From the NCBI RefSeq assembly GCF_019204045.1, contig NZ_JAGSPC010000001.1:1984001-2048000 (forward strand): a stretch of DNA of 64,000 nucleotides. The letters are read 5' to 3'. Both the position numbers and the translations under genes were made by a program. The notes below the pieces were generated by a model, which was given only the letters and a program-made list of their open reading frames with translations, searched no databases and was not told where the DNA came from. This document shows positions 1 through 8,648 of the stretch, piece by piece (within the stretch, counting starts at the first letter, position 1; the number at the start of each line of letters is the position of its first letter). Source of the stretch: Erythrobacter crassostreae (GTDB lineage: Bacteria > Pseudomonadota > Alphaproteobacteria > Sphingomonadales > Sphingomonadaceae).

Positions 1-428
1 GGCTGACTGTTCGTTTGGGGCCGCACCGTGTTCGCCGTCCGGTGTCCTACCCCAGTCATCTGCCCGAACGCGCACAAAGGTGGCAGCCGCCGTTGGACCC
101 CGAACCTTCTGCGTTGTCACCGTTTGCACTGCGCGATAGGCCTTTGAAATTGCTGGATAGAGCCGAGGCGATTGCGGTCCTTTATGCATCGCCGGATGGC
201 CTGCCGCAGCGGTTCCGCTGGCGCGGCAACGTACATGAAGTGGCGCGGGTGGAGGGCCCCGAAAGGATCGCACCTGAATGGTGGCGCGAGAAATCGACCG
301 TGCGTCTGCGTGATTACTACAGGATCGAGGATGCCGAAGGACACCGTTACTGGATTTATCGCCACGGTATCGCAGGTGATGGCCGGGGAGGCGCACCGGA
401 TTGGTATTTGCAGGGGATCTACGCCTGA
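1..428 (+). CDS. imuB: ImuB, Y-family polymerase-like protein, C-terminal end (partial)
   Basis: Only the last ~142 codons are present; the frame is open to the left edge (codon phase starts at base 3), so the gene begins outside the window. ImuB is the catalytically inactive Y-family polymerase homologue that bridges ImuA and DnaE2 on the beta clamp during SOS mutagenesis. The visible part matches the ImuB tail: a Pro/Arg stretch ending SHLPER, a 'LLDRAEAI' beta segment, then RFRWRG, 'EWWRE' and 'RDYYRIEDAEGHRYWIYR', the closing little domain typical of this family. The assignment rests on recalled family pattern plus the presence of dnaE2 downstream on the same strand, although three unrelated genes lie between them. 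The N-terminal polymerase core and clamp motif cannot be seen. Confidence 0.8.
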   Translation, partial: LTVRLGPHRVRRPVSYPSHLPERAQRWQPPLDPEPSALSPFALRDRPLKLLDRAEAIAVLYASPDGLPQRFRWRGNVHEVARVEGPERIAPEWWREKSTVRLRDYYRIEDAEGHRYWIYRHGIAGDGRGGAPDWYLQGIYA

Positions 429-1651: not shown

Positions 1652-1680
1652 TTGTTGGATTTAGATTAAGAACATATAAG
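1652..1680 (+). promoter_or_regulatory. Sigma70-like promoter of the radical SAM-UdgX-DnaE2 operon
   Basis: TTGTTG (1652-1657), a 17-bp spacer and TATAAG (1675-1680) fit a housekeeping promoter. Transcription would start near 1687, leaving a leader of only about 10 bases before the ATG at 1698. The -10 lies inside the SOS box, so LexA binding would block it directly. Confidence 0.55.
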
Positions 1681-1684
1681 GAAC
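1670..1684 (+). promoter_or_regulatory. LexA (SOS) box, alphaproteobacterial type
   Basis: GAACATATAAGGAAC is a perfect GAAC-N7-GAAC direct repeat, the complement of GTTC-N7-GTTC, the LexA site known from alphaproteobacteria. It ends 13 bases before the start codon of the radical SAM gene and covers the predicted -10. This puts the downstream operon ending in dnaE2 under DNA-damage control. Confidence 0.8.
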
Positions 1685-1697
1685 AAAAAGGTGTTCC

Positions 1698-2948
1698 ATG
1701 TCTCGATATATGACTCAGCAAACGCTCCGACAAAAGCTTGAAATCCTTGCCGATGCGGCGAAGTACGATGCATCCTGCGCTTCTTCTGGCACGGCGAAGA
1801 AAAATTCGCTCGGCGGGAAGGGTATTGGTTCGACCGAAGGGATGGGCATTTGTCATGCCTATGCGCCCGATGGACGCTGTATCTCTCTGCTCAAGGTGCT
1901 GCTCACCAATCACTGCATCTTTGATTGCCATTATTGTATCAACCGCAAGAGCAGTAATGTGCGCCGAGCGCGCTTCACCCCGCAAGAGGTCGCGGACCTC
2001 ACGATCAATTTCTACAAGCGCAATTATATCGAGGGACTGTTCCTTTCCTCGGGTATCATCAAAAGCTCGAACCATACGATGGAGCAGATGGTCGAATGTG
2101 CGCGGATATTGCGCGAGGAATATGACTTTCGTGGCTACATTCACCTAAAGACTATCCCAGAGGCCGATCCCGGGCTGATCCATCAGGCAGGGCTGTTTGC
2201 GGACCGTGTCTCGATCAATGTCGAGCTGCCCACCCCCAGTGGCCTGACGCGGCTCGCGCCGGATAAAGATGCAGCGCAAATCGAAGGCGCGCTGGCGAAG
2301 ACCAAGTCGCGCATTATTGAGGCAAAGGACGAGCGCAAACGGTTCAAACACGCGCCGCGTTTCGCCCCTGCAGGGCAATCAACTCAGATGATCGTGGGGG
2401 CGGATGATGCCTCTGATGCGGATATCGTGGGCAAGGCGAGCAACCTGTACGGCAATTTCGGGCTGCGCCGGGTATATTACAGCGCGTTTTCGCCGATCCC
2501 TGATGCGAGCGCGGTGCTGCCTTTGAAACGGCCACCTCTGATGCGCGAGCACCGATTGTACCAGTCGGACTGGTTGATGCGGTTTTATGGCTATGCTCCG
2601 GGCGAAGTGGCGCAGGCGACGGACAGGCATGGCAATCTGCCGCTCGACATTGATCCGAAGCTTGCTTGGGCGCTTAAATTCCGCGGTCAATTCCCGGTTG
2701 ATGTGAACCGTGCTTCGAAAGAGCAATTGCTGCGGGTGCCGGGATTGGGGACGACGGCTGTCGGGCGGATATTGGCGGCGCGGCGGCACCGGACTTTGCG
2801 ATTGGACGATGTGGCGAAGCTGACCCAGTCGATTGCCAAGGTCCGGCCGTTTCTGGTGGCGCTCGATTGGCGGCCTACCACCCTTACAGACAGAGCCGAT
2901 CTGCGCGCATTGTTGGCGCCGAAGCAGGAACAGCTGGAGCTGTTTTGA
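1698..2948 (+). CDS. Putative DNA modification/repair radical SAM protein
   Basis: A 416-residue member of the radical SAM family typically found beside UdgX (TIGR03916-like, 'rSAM linked to UDG'). The 4Fe-4S motif is CX3CX2C at residues 73-80 (CIFDCHYC). A helix-hairpin-helix DNA-binding motif follows near residues 342-370 (LLRVPGLGTTAVGRIL), a combination that suggests action on DNA, but the reaction is not established. It has some likeness to spore photoproduct lyase-type enzymes in organization. The start at 1698 has AAAAGG 6 bases upstream; GGAACA/TGTTCC (1680-1697) could fold a hairpin with that Shine-Dalgarno in its loop. Its stop overlaps the next start (ATGA), indicating coupled translation with UdgX. 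Confidence 0.85.
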   Translation: MSRYMTQQTLRQKLEILADAAKYDASCASSGTAKKNSLGGKGIGSTEGMGICHAYAPDGRCISLLKVLLTNHCIFDCHYCINRKSSNVRRARFTPQEVADLTINFYKRNYIEGLFLSSGIIKSSNHTMEQMVECARILREEYDFRGYIHLKTIPEADPGLIHQAGLFADRVSINVELPTPSGLTRLAPDKDAAQIEGALAKTKSRIIEAKDERKRFKHAPRFAPAGQSTQMIVGADDASDADIVGKASNLYGNFGLRRVYYSAFSPIPDASAVLPLKRPPLMREHRLYQSDWLMRFYGYAPGEVAQATDRHGNLPLDIDPKLAWALKFRGQFPVDVNRASKEQLLRVPGLGTTAVGRILAARRHRTLRLDDVAKLTQSIAKVRPFLVALDWRPTTLTDRADLRALLAPKQEQLELF

Positions 2949-4408
2949 TGATGGTCGCGCAAAGAGTTTCAGGACAAGATATCAACCTTAGCGCGCATTA
3001 CACCGTGCACTTGCCTGCGCCCGATGATTTCGCGTTCTGGCGCGAACGGGCGCGTGCCTTGACCCAGAGCGATGTCCCACCGGACCGCGTCAGCTGGGTC
3101 GAGCCCGGCGGAACAGGCGATCTGTTTGCACATGGAGGGCCTTCTCCCGAAGACAAGCCCCTGCCTCTGCCGAACAAAGGTGCAGCAGCTGTCCGTGCCA
3201 GCAAACGCTTTTTGAGGCTTGCCCGTAACGCTGCGCTGCATTCCGATACAGAGCGGTTCGGCTTGCTCTACCGGATGCTCTGGCGGCTGCAGTCAAAGCC
3301 GCGCGTGATGGAGGATAAGGCTGATCCCGACGTGCGCCGGATCGAAGAACTCGACAAATCTGTGCGCCGTGACAGTCACAAGATGCACGCTTTCGTCCGC
3401 TTTCGCGAGGTAGAGAGCGATGAAGGCGAACACTACATTGCCTGGTTTGAGCCGGACCATCACATCGTGCGCGCGAATGCCGGTTTTTTCAGACGACGCT
3501 TTGCCAATATGAATTGGTCTATCCTGACCCCGCGCGGCTGTATCCATTGGGACGGCGAGACGATGCGCGAAAGCGGCCCTGCGCAGCGCTCGGACGCGCC
3601 ATCCGACGACCCGACCGAGGATCTGTGGAAGTCCTACTACGCATCCACTTTTAACCCCGCCCGTTTGAAAGTCGGTGCGATGATGGCAGAGATGCCCAAG
3701 AAATACTGGAAGAACATGCCAGAGGCGGAGCTGATCCCTGATCTGATCGCCAGCGCGCAGGCCCGCGAAGCTGGAATGGTGGCCGCAGGCGAACGCGAGG
3801 AGCGCGAGCGGCCACAAACTCTCGCAGAAATCAGCGATGCGATCTCTGCCTGTCGCGATTGCCCGATTGCGGAGTGCGGAACGCGTGCGGTTATGGGGGA
3901 GGGGCCATCCGATGCACCCTTAATGATCGTCGGCGAACAACCCGGTGACCAAGAAGACCAACAAGGCAGACCGTTTGTAGGGCCAGCGGGCCAGCTGCTT
4001 GATGAGTGTTCAGAGCAAGCTGGTATTGATCGAAGCGCGGCCTACGTCACAAATGCGGTTAAGCACTTCAAATACACTCAGCGCGGTAAGCGCCGCATCC
4101 ATCAGTCGCCCACGGCGAAGGAAATCGACACCTGCCGCTGGTGGCTGGAGGCCGAGCGCGCTTTGGCAAAGCCGCGCATAGTGCTGGCATTGGGAGCAAG
4201 CGCGGCGCGCAGCCTGCTCGGTAAGACGGTGAGCATTTCCAAGGCGCGAGGCACGCCGCTCCCGCTCGACGACGGCAGCGAGCTATGGGTGACAGTTCAC
4301 CCGTCCTATCTGCTGCGTCTGGATGGGGCTGCGCGTGAGGAGCAGGGTGCATTGTTCGCCCGCGATCTGTCAGCAGTCACAGCACGGCTTAAGGAGCTTG
4401 GGGCGTGA
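2948..4408 (+). CDS. udgX: DUF4130-UdgX fusion, uracil-DNA crosslinking protein
   Basis: 486 residues. The N-terminal ~250 residues are the DUF4130 domain (TIGR03915-like, companion of the radical SAM protein). The C-terminal ~200 are UdgX, a family 4-related uracil-DNA glycosylase that captures uracil sites by covalent bonding through a histidine. Visible motifs: motif A GEQPGDQEDQ (329-338), the UdgX-specific loop KRRIHQSP (381-388, suicide His385), motif B HPS (451-453), and Cys302, Cys305 and Cys396 that fit the iron-sulfur cluster. The longer open frame begins upstream inside the radical SAM gene; ATG 2948 was chosen because it overlaps that gene's stop by 1 base in the usual ATGA fashion. 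It is the middle gene of the SOS operon; dnaE2 starts 1 base after its stop. Confidence 0.9.
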   Translation: MMVAQRVSGQDINLSAHYTVHLPAPDDFAFWRERARALTQSDVPPDRVSWVEPGGTGDLFAHGGPSPEDKPLPLPNKGAAAVRASKRFLRLARNAALHSDTERFGLLYRMLWRLQSKPRVMEDKADPDVRRIEELDKSVRRDSHKMHAFVRFREVESDEGEHYIAWFEPDHHIVRANAGFFRRRFANMNWSILTPRGCIHWDGETMRESGPAQRSDAPSDDPTEDLWKSYYASTFNPARLKVGAMMAEMPKKYWKNMPEAELIPDLIASAQAREAGMVAAGEREERERPQTLAEISDAISACRDCPIAECGTRAVMGEGPSDAPLMIVGEQPGDQEDQQGRPFVGPAGQLLDECSEQAGIDRSAAYVTNAVKHFKYTQRGKRRIHQSPTAKEIDTCRWWLEAERALAKPRIVLALGASAARSLLGKTVSISKARGTPLPLDDGSELWVTVHPSYLLRLDGAAREEQGALFARDLSAVTARLKELGA

Positions 4409-4409
4409 C

Positions 4410-7400
4410 ATGCCAGAGGCTCCGCTTACCCCTGACAAACGCACGTTGGAGATTGATCCTGACCTGATCGAGGCTCCACCGCGCGCACCATTTGTGGAGC
4501 TGGGGCTGGTCAGCTGTTTCAGTTTTCTGCGCGGTGCCTCCGATGCGGTGGATATCGTGATGACTGCCCGCGCGCTTGGTTATGATGCGATCGGGATTGC
4601 CGATGCCAATTCTTTTGCCGGCGTTGTGCGCATCCATACCGAAGCGGCGACGCTCAAATTGCGGCCAGTGATTGGTGCGCGAATTGAGACGGTCGAGGGA
4701 CTGGCATTCCTCGCCTATCCGAAAAATCGTGCTGCTTATGGCAGGCTTTGCCGGTTGATCAGCGCGGGCCGGATGCAGACGCTTTCGGGAGAATGGCAGG
4801 AAAAGGGCACCTGTGAGATCGATTGCGCAATGCTGGCGGAACATTCTGATGATGTGCAACTGATCCTGCTGACTCCAGATGATCTGGAGGCGGAGTTCAC
4901 CATCCCTGCCTGGGCCAGCAATGTCATTGCACTCGATGGCAGCGAGCTCGCCAGCCATGTAACAGGCGCCTTGCCTGATCTGCTGCCGCATCTGGTGCGC
5001 GGGCTGCCTAGTTTGCGCCACTTGGCCGCAAGTTACCTTTATCGCGGAGATGATACGGCGCGGATCGACCGCCTCGATGCGCTGGCGCGGGTAAACGGCC
5101 TGACGCTGCTTGCCACCAATGATGTGCATTATCACGCGCCCGAACGCCGCCCGTTGCAGGATGTGATGACGGCTATCGCGAACAAGACCACGGTGGCCGA
5201 GGCAGGGCACCTGCTTCATGCGAATTCTGAAAGGCACCTGAAAAGCCCAGAGGTGATGCAGAGATTGTTTGCCCGATGGCCGCACGCAGTCAAAGCCACA
5301 CGAGAAGTTGCCGATGCTTGCGGCTTCTCGCTCAACGAGCTGCGTTACGAATATCCTGAAGAAATCTACCCCGATGGCATGTCTCCGCAAGAGTATCTGG
5401 AGATAGAGACATGGCGCGGGGCAGAGCGGCGGTATCCAAGCGGGGTGCCCGATAGTGTTCAGCAGACGCTAGAGCGCGAGTTGAATTTGATCGCGAAACT
5501 TGATCTCGCGCGGTATTTTCTGACGATCAAGGATATCGTCGACTTTGCGCGCGGGGTAGAGCCGCCGATCCTGTGTCAGGGGCGGGGGAGCGCCGCCAAT
5601 TCGGCTGTTTGCTATTGCCTTGAAATTACCAGCGTGGATCCGGCCAAGCATCAACTTTTGTTTGATCGCTTCATTTCCGAAGAACGCAAAGAGCCGCCCG
5701 ATATCGACGTCGATTTCGAGCATGAACGGCGCGAGGAAGTGATCCAGTACATTTACAAGAAATATGGCCGTCACCGCGCGGGCCTGACGGCGACGGTTAT
5801 TCATTACCGCCCGCGTATGGCGATCCGCGAAGTTGGCAAGGTGATGGGTTTGAGTGAAGATATCACAAGCTCCCTTGCGCGCACCGTATGGGGCGGACAT
5901 GGGCGAGAGATCGGCGAGGCGCATGTCGAGGATATCGGCATGAAGCTGGAAGATCCGCATCTCAAACGTGTGCTTAAACTGACCGAACAGATGATCGGGA
6001 TGCCGCGCCACCTTTCCCAGCATGTCGGCGGGTTCATCCTGACCGAAAGCGCGCTGACAGAAACGGTGCCGATCGGGAATGGCGCGATGCCGGATCGCAG
6101 TTTTATCGAGTGGGATAAGGACGATATCGAAGCGCTCGGCATCCTTAAGGTCGATGTGCTGGCGCTGGGCATGCTGACCTGCATCAAGAAATGCCTCGAC
6201 CTGCTGGAGGTGCACCATGGCCGCGCTCTGACGTTGGCCACGGTCCCGCGTGAAGACCCGGAGACATACGCCATGCTGCGCAAAGGGGATTCGCTGGGTG
6301 TGTTTCAGGTGGAAAGCCGTGCGCAGATGAACATGCTTCCGCGCCTGCGTCCGCGCGAATTTTACGACCTTGTCATTCAGGTCGCGATTGTACGACCCGG
6401 CCCGATTCAGGGTGATATGGTGCATCCCTACCTCAAGCGGCGGCGCGGAGCAGAGCCGGTGCAAATTCCGGCGCCATCTCCCGCCCATGGTCCGCCTGAT
6501 GAGTTGTCGAGTATTCTTGCCCGCACTTTAGGTGTGCCCATCTTTCAGGAACAGGCGATGAAAATCGCGCTCGATGCAGCCAAATTCACTTCATTGGAGG
6601 CTAACCGGCTGCGAAAGGCGATGGCGACATTCCGTAGCCGCGGCATGGTAGATGAACTGCAAGATATGATGGTCGAACGGATGGTTACGCGCGGCTATGA
6701 GCGCGATTTTGCGCAGAGGTGCTTTAACCAGATCCGCGGCTTTGGCGAATACGGCTTTCCCGAAAGCCACGCGGCCAGCTTTGCGCATCTGGTCTACGTT
6801 TCAAGCTGGCTCAAATGTCATTTCCCCGCCGCCTTTGCTGCCGGGCTGCTCAACTCTCAGCCGATGGGCTTTTATGCCCCCGCACAGATCGTGCGTGATG
6901 CGCGCGAGCACGGTGTTGAGGTGTTGCCTACAGATGTGAACCACTCACAGTGGGATTGCACGCTTGAAGAGATTGGGACGTCGCAGGAAGGGCAATCGGG
7001 ACGACTTGATCGCAATATCGCTTTGCGGCTTGGCCTGCGCCAGATCGATGGACTGCACGAACATATCGCCGCGCAATTGATCGCAGAGCGTGAGGATCGC
7101 GGTCTCTACCGCGACGTTGCTCAATTGCGAGAGCGGGCGGGGCTGTCTCCTGCGCATATCGAACGCTTGGCGAGCGCGGATTGTTTTGGTTCGATGCAGC
7201 TTTCACGCAGGCAGGCCTTGTGGGATGCGCGCAGTCTGATCGCGGGTCCAGATTTGCCATTGTTTCGTGCGGCTGAAGAGCGTGATGAAGGTGCCGAGCG
7301 TATGCAGGTGCAATTGCCGACTATGCCGATGTCCGAAGAAGTGGTCGCCGATTACCAGACCACCCGGCTCAGTTTGAAAGCGCACCCGATGGCATTCTTG

Positions 7401-7712
7401 CGCCCAGGATTGGCGGAGCGCGGATTTGTGCGGGCTTGTGACCTGCGAGATCGCAAGTTTCGTAGCATGGTTCAGGTCGCCGGAGTGGTCCTCATCCGGC
7501 AGCGTCCGGGCAGCGCGAAGGGTGTGTGCTTCATCACCCTTGAAGATGAAACTGGTGTGATCAATCTGGTTGTCTGGCCGGACCTTAAGGAGAAGCAGCG
7601 GCGCGTTGTGATGGGCGCGCGGTTGATGGAGGTGCGCGGACGGGTCGAGTATGACGATGAGGTGATCCACGTGATTGCCCAGAATATGACCGACGCAACA
7701 GATCAGCTTTAA
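4410..7712 (+). CDS. dnaE2: Error-prone DNA polymerase III alpha subunit DnaE2 (ImuC), truncated by an in-frame stop
   Basis: 1100 residues of a C-family polymerase that copies damaged DNA with ImuA and ImuB. Order: PHP domain (about 29-270) in which the metal-binding His of the replicative enzyme is replaced (VSCFSF near 34-39), polymerase core with catalytic aspartates in PDIDVDFEH (Asp431, Asp433), helix-hairpin-helix, and a C-terminal OB fold (about 1020-1085). Start ATG 4410 has AAGGAG 13 bases upstream and lies 1 base after the udgX stop. The frame is broken by TAA at 7710-7712; the same frame then continues without another stop to 7901 and ends in KSRDFH, the usual DnaE2 C-terminus. 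So the protein appears to lack its last ~62 residues, by mutation or by a base-calling error. Confidence 0.92.
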   Translation: MPEAPLTPDKRTLEIDPDLIEAPPRAPFVELGLVSCFSFLRGASDAVDIVMTARALGYDAIGIADANSFAGVVRIHTEAATLKLRPVIGARIETVEGLAFLAYPKNRAAYGRLCRLISAGRMQTLSGEWQEKGTCEIDCAMLAEHSDDVQLILLTPDDLEAEFTIPAWASNVIALDGSELASHVTGALPDLLPHLVRGLPSLRHLAASYLYRGDDTARIDRLDALARVNGLTLLATNDVHYHAPERRPLQDVMTAIANKTTVAEAGHLLHANSERHLKSPEVMQRLFARWPHAVKATREVADACGFSLNELRYEYPEEIYPDGMSPQEYLEIETWRGAERRYPSGVPDSVQQTLERELNLIAKLDLARYFLTIKDIVDFARGVEPPILCQGRGSAANSAVCYCLEITSVDPAKHQLLFDRFISEERKEPPDIDVDFEHERREEVIQYIYKKYGRHRAGLTATVIHYRPRMAIREVGKVMGLSEDITSSLARTVWGGHGREIGEAHVEDIGMKLEDPHLKRVLKLTEQMIGMPRHLSQHVGGFILTESALTETVPIGNGAMPDRSFIEWDKDDIEALGILKVDVLALGMLTCIKKCLDLLEVHHGRALTLATVPREDPETYAMLRKGDSLGVFQVESRAQMNMLPRLRPREFYDLVIQVAIVRPGPIQGDMVHPYLKRRRGAEPVQIPAPSPAHGPPDELSSILARTLGVPIFQEQAMKIALDAAKFTSLEANRLRKAMATFRSRGMVDELQDMMVERMVTRGYERDFAQRCFNQIRGFGEYGFPESHAASFAHLVYVSSWLKCHFPAAFAAGLLNSQPMGFYAPAQIVRDAREHGVEVLPTDVNHSQWDCTLEEIGTSQEGQSGRLDRNIALRLGLRQIDGLHEHIAAQLIAEREDRGLYRDVAQLRERAGLSPAHIERLASADCFGSMQLSRRQALWDARSLIAGPDLPLFRAAEERDEGAERMQVQLPTMPMSEEVVADYQTTRLSLKAHPMAFLRPGLAERGFVRACDLRDRKFRSMVQVAGVVLIRQRPGSAKGVCFITLEDETGVINLVVWPDLKEKQRRVVMGARLMEVRGRVEYDDEVIHVIAQNMTDATDQL

Positions 7713-7901
7713 CGGCTTTCTGATGATATGTTGAATGCACCGGTGGCACGGGCAGACCATGTCAATGCGCCGCTTATCAGCCGCAAACCGTCGGGCGAGA
7801 AAGAGCCGTTGAAACCGCGAGATATGATCGATCAATTGCCAAACGTGACAGGCCATCCGCGCAATCATCGGATCATTCCCAAATCACGCGACTTTCATTA
7901 A
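7713..7901 (+). pseudogene. dnaE2: Detached C-terminus of dnaE2 after a premature stop
   Basis: In the same phase as dnaE2, the codons after the TAA read RLSDDMLNAPVARADHV..., later PLISRKPSGEKEPLKPRD, and finish GHPRNHRIIPKSRDFH before a TAA at 7899-7901. The ending [K/R]SRDFH is characteristic of full-length DnaE2. One base change in codon 1101 (for example TAC or TAT for TAA) would restore a 1163-residue protein. An internal ATG at 7728 could start a 57-residue peptide, but it lacks a clear Shine-Dalgarno. Confidence 0.8.
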
Positions 7902-7910
7902 GCGCCGAGT

Positions 7911-8648
7911 ATGACTCGCAAAAACGCATTTAAGATCAGCCGGAAGGTTGGGCGCTTTAAGGGTGATCGAAGAGCGATCTGGCTCTTGGCCCTCTTCGCA
8001 GTCGCTATTGCTGGTTGGGGTTGGTTGGAGCGCCATCCGCAGCATAATCCATGGGCACCGCTCGATCTGCGCGATCCGATTGGAATGGCGACAGCGACGA
8101 AGATGGTGGCGCTCAAAGATAATGTTGAAATGTGCAGAGCCACGCTGGAGCGGAGCGAAGTGGTTTTCGGAGTCTTGCCGACCAGCGGAGACGGCGCATG
8201 CGAGCGCAGCGACCGAACCCAACTGTCAGACTATCCTCTGGCGCCAAGCACGCCCGCTGTCACATGCCCCGTTGCCGCCGGTCTGGAAGTGTGGCGCGCG
8301 AAAAGCGTCGCGCCAGCAGCTCGTACAATCTTTGGAAGTGATCTTGCGACGATTGAGCACCTCGGCGCATATTCCTGCCGCCGCCTATATGGCCGCGACG
8401 AGGGGCCGTGGAGCGAACATGCGACAAGCAACGCCATCGACATCGCGGCCTTCGTTCTGAAGGATGGTCGCCGGATCAGCGTTCTGAGGGATTGGAACGG
8501 TGACGCGGACGAACGCAAATTCTTGCGCGAGGTGCGTGATGGAGCCTGCGGAGCATTCGCCACAGTGCTCTCGCCCGACTACAACGCGGCCCACGCAGAT
8601 CATTTTCATTTTGATCAACAGAGCCGCTGGAGCGGCGCGTGCCGATAG
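7911..8648 (+). CDS. Extensin-like (PF06904) membrane-anchored protein
   Basis: 245 residues. A basic N-terminus is followed by one membrane segment (about 22-38, AIWLLALFAVAIAGWGW), so the body lies in the periplasm. The C-terminal half is the bacterial 'extensin-like' domain: paired cysteines (CPVAAGLEVW, YSCRRLYG), 'SEHATSNAIDIAAF' and the metal-site motif ADHFHFD near the end. These resemble D,D-peptidase/VanY-like metal-binding folds and a role in cell-wall trimming is likely, but no substrate is proven. It begins 10 bases after the restored dnaE2 end and could be cotranscribed with it, though its function looks unrelated to SOS. The gene ends 6 bases before the convergent phoB stop. Confidence 0.85.
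   Translation: MTRKNAFKISRKVGRFKGDRRAIWLLALFAVAIAGWGWLERHPQHNPWAPLDLRDPIGMATATKMVALKDNVEMCRATLERSEVVFGVLPTSGDGACERSDRTQLSDYPLAPSTPAVTCPVAAGLEVWRAKSVAPAARTIFGSDLATIEHLGAYSCRRLYGRDEGPWSEHATSNAIDIAAFVLKDGRRISVLRDWNGDADERKFLREVRDGACGAFATVLSPDYNAAHADHFHFDQQSRWSGACR

Follow-up and report, generated by a model that had tools for sequence, protein, structure and literature searches.

The window, the whole stretch of 64,000 nucleotides analysed here, carries a dnaE2 gene in the order SOS box, radical SAM gene (TIGR03916), TIGR03915–UdgX fusion, dnaE2 and extensin-like gene (Table 1). The dnaE2 frame (4410–7901, forward strand) encodes 1100 residues, is interrupted by an in-frame TAA at 7710–7712, remains open for 62 further codons and closes with a second TAA; the read-through product ends in IIPKSRDFH. 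Translation thus confirms the preliminary description of this DNA, which had reported a single in-frame stop at 7710 followed by an intact frame of 62 codons up to KSRDFH. The start at 4410 agrees with that of relatives, M1 and P2 being present in at least 90% of 70 sequences. The protein matches the NCBIfam family of error-prone DNA polymerases, NF004225, with 1370.6 bits (cut-off 939), and Pfam recognises PHP, pol III alpha, finger, HhH and OB domains. The motifs PDIDVDF (at 430) and KVDVLALG (at 580) are both present; their aspartates are presumably the catalytic ones. The replicative C-terminal domain is absent according to both Pfam and the fold model, as the DnaE2 type requires. The available part of PMC3919608 describes the DnaE2 type as lacking this domain.

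Table 1. Features of the dnaE2 region; positions refer to the window.
Feature	Position	Strand	Basis
imuB, C-terminal end; the rest of the 550-residue frame lies upstream of the window	1..428	+	DUF6504 at the end, IMS match
SOS (LexA) box GAACATATAAGGAAC before the operon, putative	1670..1684	+	GAACN7GAAC pattern, position, conservation
Radical SAM gene linked to UDG	1698..2948	+	TIGR03916
Fused TIGR03915/DUF4130 and UdgX uracil-DNA-binding gene, start uncertain	2867..4408	+	family matches
dnaE2 as read, 1100 codons and TAA; PHP, polymerase, finger, HhH and OB complete	4410..7712	+	translation, family matches, fold model
Premature TAA in frame (codon 1101), within the short final helix that follows the OB fold	7710..7712	+	translation, relatives, fold model
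Orphaned tail, variable linker part; still open, no sign of decay	7713..7853	+	translation, alignment, branch changes
Orphaned conserved DnaE2 tip HPRNHRIIPKSRDFH	7854..7898	+	alignment, phylum sample, plasmid copies
Normal stop position of dnaE2	7899..7901	+	translation, relatives
Extensin-like gene directly after dnaE2, now preceded by some 200 untranslated bases of the dnaE2 tail	7911..8648	+	Pfam

An AlphaFold2 model of the read-through protein, built with 69 relatives (mean pLDDT 78.4, pTM 0.68), shows a body folded to about residue 1105, followed by an unstructured segment, 1106–1163, with pLDDT below 50. The stop codon falls within the short last helix, 1097–1102. Since the TAA lies just behind the OB fold, all the folded domains survive; the earlier statement that the polymerase, HhH and OB parts remain is thus borne out by the Pfam matches and the model. 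Structures similar by sequence are replicative alpha subunits, and the closest folds are these subunits and PolC; they hold no information on the tail.

The SOS box before the radical SAM gene has the pattern GAACN7GAAC, which is also found within 120 bases upstream of 13 of the 37 radical SAM gene homologues with a mapped start. Since the count of this pattern in the window shows no enrichment (one occurrence found, 2.05 expected), the call rests on the place and the conservation of the box; two other SOS-like patterns do not occur in the window. The window opens inside imuB, a point absent from the preliminary description. The imuB frame has an IMS match and up to 69% identity to upstream frames of the phylum sample described below. 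Directly before it lies a 283-residue ImuA-like frame, which matches NF033429 with an E-value of 2.5e-6, yet with 27.5 bits stays below the cut-off of 150; neither Pfam nor a defence-system library gave a match for this frame. Both frames are open upstream of the window. A second GAACN7GAAC box precedes the ImuA-like gene, so that dnaE2 appears to belong to a second SOS operon, a few kilobases from imuA–imuB. Family matches and the pattern search therefore agree with the earlier view that the surroundings (operon, SOS box, radical SAM and UdgX genes) look functional.

The stop is peculiar to this genome. The read-through DnaE2 was searched against 114 genus genomes, among them the present one, and 108 matched. 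Only this genome and one congener (G087) have an internal dnaE2 stop, and at the 7710 site the stop is unique among the 114. The congener's TAA (locus L104) lies elsewhere, at about residue 675, in a fragmented assembly of 260 contigs with 7% contamination; a shared stop was accordingly rejected. In 106 of the other 107 genomes that matched, the match table shows, on our reading, a piece reaching query residue 1154 or beyond, and the exception (G062) is an assembly of 590 contigs. The nearest relatives, G101 (91%) and G010 (90%), and 27 further genomes have a sense codon at the stop site (29 of the 29 read). The same is true of a second collection of 80 loci, from Sphingomonadales and Rhodobacterales going by their titles: a sense codon is present in every one of the 78 loci that cover the site, with a widely varying residue, and the other two (L050 and L054) end before it. 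The idea that DnaE2 of relatives might normally end here, raised in the preliminary description, is excluded by these genus genomes and 78 loci, which read through the site.

The age of the stop can be approached from the constraint on the sequence behind it. Changes on this branch were assigned by parsimony against G101 and G010, the tail being codons 1102–1163. Three nonsynonymous and 12 synonymous changes fall in the tail on this branch, and two and 13 on the G101 branch; for the body, the corresponding ratios are 59:177 and 89:180. The chance of three or fewer nonsynonymous changes in 15 is 0.002 to 0.00001 for a neutral nonsynonymous share of 0.6 to 0.75. With dS at 1.2 to 1.6, synonymous sites are almost saturated and these counts are therefore minima; with such a dS and only 15 changes, a long unconstrained period is excluded, while a short one is not. 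For the pair of this genome and G010, dN reaches 0.119 for the tail against 0.066 for the body, and for G101 and G010 the values are 0.106 and 0.082; the tail is a fast-evolving part of the protein in other pairs too. Since the orphaned tail shows no decay, the TAA arose very recently, is an error or is bypassed.

The reading favoured here, with a probability of about 0.6, is that of a real and very recent nonsense mutation in the strain or its population, which truncates DnaE2 behind the OB fold and probably weakens it. The next best explanation, although an unlikely one, is that the consensus has a wrong base at this site and that the organism makes full-length DnaE2. The lack of decay in the tail fits an error as well as a young mutation, neither tail nor tip showing relaxation on this branch, and it is one codon alone that parts the frame from the genus-wide reading. 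The assembly itself, 84.06% complete in seven contigs, is incomplete, which either broken marker genes or missing contigs might explain. It also contains a second break, a kup frameshift that lies outside the window (locus L132, contig C1 near 1,806,000). The shift falls about 70 codons short of the gene's end and leaves a frame of 582, compared with 647 to 677 in four relatives; it may itself be either real or an error. Against an error stand the low rate of breaks, two in 404 genes, and the kind of error needed: to our knowledge, a stop-creating substitution is a rare error in polished assemblies.

The break rate comes from a comparison with G101 over 584 kb, covering 404 G101 genes with an orthologue and 151,635 residues. 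The totals are counts by inspection, with 24 candidate rows scripted per direction. The two breaks in this genome are the dnaE2 stop and the kup frameshift; in the 410 genes of G101, none was confirmed, with five of its frame-change candidates judged by position only. For this genome, all 17 frames with a candidate stop were checked by their codon-position pattern, and the four besides dnaE2 that have a third-position pattern before the stop were each examined singly. Candidate 379521 was rejected as an over-long start; 534650 and 475580 are, in our own reading, frames opposite another gene. Candidate 446174, with IPPT and HAD matches, is a tRNA-modification gene, which we take to be miaA; its over-long start faces a HAD-hydrolase gene on the other strand, and the G010 homologue of the tRNA-modification gene starts later. 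The frame-change candidates of this genome were two, the real one in kup and 32169, the latter again read as an over-long start. For G101, 12 of 13 stop-candidate frames were judged by pattern and 258253 was examined separately; of its six frame-change candidates, 258253 was examined closely and five were judged by position, four of them lying within the first 65 residues. Across the whole genome, 24 ABC and 22 TonB-receptor domain matches above cut-off contain no internal stop (a frameshift need not show in such matches). A noisy assembly with many broken genes was rejected on these grounds. The consensus is clean and a stop-creating substitution error is unlikely; with little to suggest a noisy assembly, the balance tips towards a real allele, whose odds against an error are judged to be about 3 to 1. 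The choice left by the preliminary description, between a strain-specific change and a base-calling error, still stands, with the weight now on the former.

The lost part of the protein is not uniform. In an alignment of 70 sequences (A1), from which the tip-less loci L053 and L081 and other rows were left out, the majority fraction is 0.26 in the linker (1121–1147), 0.86 in the last 16 residues and 0.84–0.85 in the polymerase core. A count over loci is fairer than this figure because of the omission of the two tip-less loci: 105 of 107 loci end in RDFH, the exceptions being L053 and L081, which have no tip. Some genomes are present in both collections behind this count, and L050 and L054, whose contigs end earlier, were dropped from the initial 109. 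A wider sample of the phylum comprised 160 genomes, 56 of them with DnaE2 at an E-value of 1e-150 or better. Leaving aside this genome and G010, 59 of the 60 DnaE2 copies end in R[DNE]F[HRQ]-COOH. Where DnaE2 comes from other classes of the phylum (20 copies), the ends as printed show the tip after the OB fold with almost no linker. The DnaE2 described here, as read, has no such end, the tip lying behind the stop. The tip is not an established family criterion, so its loss does not expel the gene from the family.

Outside the genome sets, 16 plasmid copies of DnaE2, hand-picked for spread, give a mixed picture. Nine end in R[DN]F[HRC], two of them from Actinomycetota; two have near-variant ends (SRDWQ and SHDFH), one from Actinomycetota and one from Nitrospirota; five have no tip, namely two from Streptomyces, two from Rhodanobacter and one from Deinococcus. 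The tip-less Streptomyces copies adjoin a Y-family gene, the Rhodanobacter ones have none in the fetched flank, and the Deinococcus copy is annotated as pol III alpha. An ImuB-like match is present in the fetched flank of 54 of the 60 DnaE2 loci of the phylum sample. The sole tip-less copy of that sample (L240 in genome G180) also ends before the OB fold; its fetched flank contains no ImuB-like match, and one is found elsewhere in the genome. A link between the tip and imuB is unproven, since loci without a tip or without ImuB are too few and the plasmid copies are mixed.

The recruitment of DnaE2 to ImuA–ImuB is modelled, not solved, in the cited literature, as far as its available parts go. 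According to the accessible text of PMC10421592, direct biochemical or structural evidence for the proposed mutasome contacts had been missing. In the AlphaFold models of PMC12926913, going by the sections available, the main DnaE2–ImuB contacts are made by the PHP domain and the (HhH)2 region. Both the PHP and HhH domains are retained here, and the suggestion of the preliminary description that the product may be unable to join the ImuA/ImuB mutasome is left without support by those models. The available part of PMC3919608 refers to "protruding C-terminal tails" of DnaE2 that are mostly predicted to be unstructured; the lost tail is of the same kind, being unfolded in the model. Taken together, contacts modelled in retained domains and mostly unstructured tails suggest that the truncated enzyme most likely folds and can meet ImuB, but does so without the conserved peptide.

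Under a recent nonsense mutation, the ImuA–ImuB-dependent SOS polymerase would be cut just behind its OB fold. The truncated DnaE2 would be made on SOS induction, would fold and still polymerise, and would probably still meet ImuB through its PHP and HhH parts. It would be missing a short docking or regulatory peptide, and damage-induced mutagenesis might then be weakened, not abolished; the weakening of SOS mutagenesis is a guess. Induced mutagenesis that depends on dnaE2 is described for Caulobacter crescentus in PMC6511836. DnaE2 is not essential, so the allele can persist for a while.

A real stop may also have no effect, the truncated polymerase being fully active and the tail dispensable in this lineage. 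All the folded domains are kept, the published ImuB contacts (PMC12926913, in its available part) lie within them, and other tip-less DnaE2 exist (2 of 107 loci, 1 of 60 copies in the phylum sample, 5 of 16 plasmid copies). Nevertheless, the loss of the tip is rare in the genome sets, and the last 16 residues, in the alignment without L053 and L081, are conserved like the catalytic core, which makes a harmless truncation improbable. Least probable is a bypass of the stop, in which read-through or re-initiation supplies the tail within the protein or as a separate small peptide: the tail shows no decay and in-frame starts follow the stop, including ATG 7728 and TTG 7809 (the latter with a purine-rich stretch upstream), but ATG 7728 has no purine-rich motif in the 18 bases upstream of it, the product from TTG 7809 would have only 30 residues, no relative read has a stop here that would point to an evolved mechanism, and TAA is the least leaky stop.

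A recent nonsense mutation of this sort is ordinary as an allele and adds to the young disruptions known from SOS genes that a cell can do without. Strain-level nonsense alleles are a known kind among dispensable stress genes, and this case is like them in being a young, single stop among intact neighbours, with nothing special that differs. The stop marks a place at which truncation leaves every folded domain of DnaE2 untouched, and the case draws notice to a terminal tip with roughly the conservation of the active site. The part worth following is this tip. The conservation of the tip suggests that it has a function. Its exactly terminal position, the variable length of the linker and the lack of folding in the monomer model would give it the look of a docking peptide. 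It is possible, and proposed here tentatively, that the tip is an unrecognised docking motif at the very C-terminus, on a variable linker, that recruits the polymerase to ImuA, ImuB or the clamp. Such a motif would be kept across classes of Pseudomonadota, and some Actinomycetota and a Nitrospirota have comparable ends; this strain would then be a natural tip-less mutant in which the role can be read. A conserved tip on a flexible tether would offer a small, testable handle on the recruitment of DnaE2 to ImuA–ImuB.

The role of the tip seems to be undescribed. DnaE2 together with 'RDFH' was not found in an open-access library, nor together with 'SRDFH' among the matches listed there; a motif given in a figure or supplement only would escape such a search, and the DnaE2 tail was not found in the titles or abstract openings among the matches listed for literature on the C-termini of ImuA, ImuB and ImuC. 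The available parts of PMC3919608, PMC12926913 and PMC10421592 do not mention a terminal tip; the conserved RDFH end is thus a feature found here and absent from what PMC3919608, in that part, says of the protruding tails. The group named DnaE2A in the accessible text of PMC12926913 resembles the present gene in domain order, in the PDIDVDF and KVDVLALG motifs, in the adjacent imuB and ImuA-like genes and in the putative SOS boxes; unlike that group, this copy stops at residue 1100, without the tail and the RDFH tip.

Two further features of the gene were observed. In alignment A1, residues 1113–1121 (window 7746–7772) form a second conserved island in the tail, ARAD[HE]V..P. In 14 of the 108 matched genus genomes (e.g., G080, G102 and G061), the dnaE2 match is split near query residue 860 into two pieces on the same contig, which are 109 to 181 bases apart and lie in a single open frame; the arrangement resembles an insertion, in frame, that separates the polymerase part from the HhH part.
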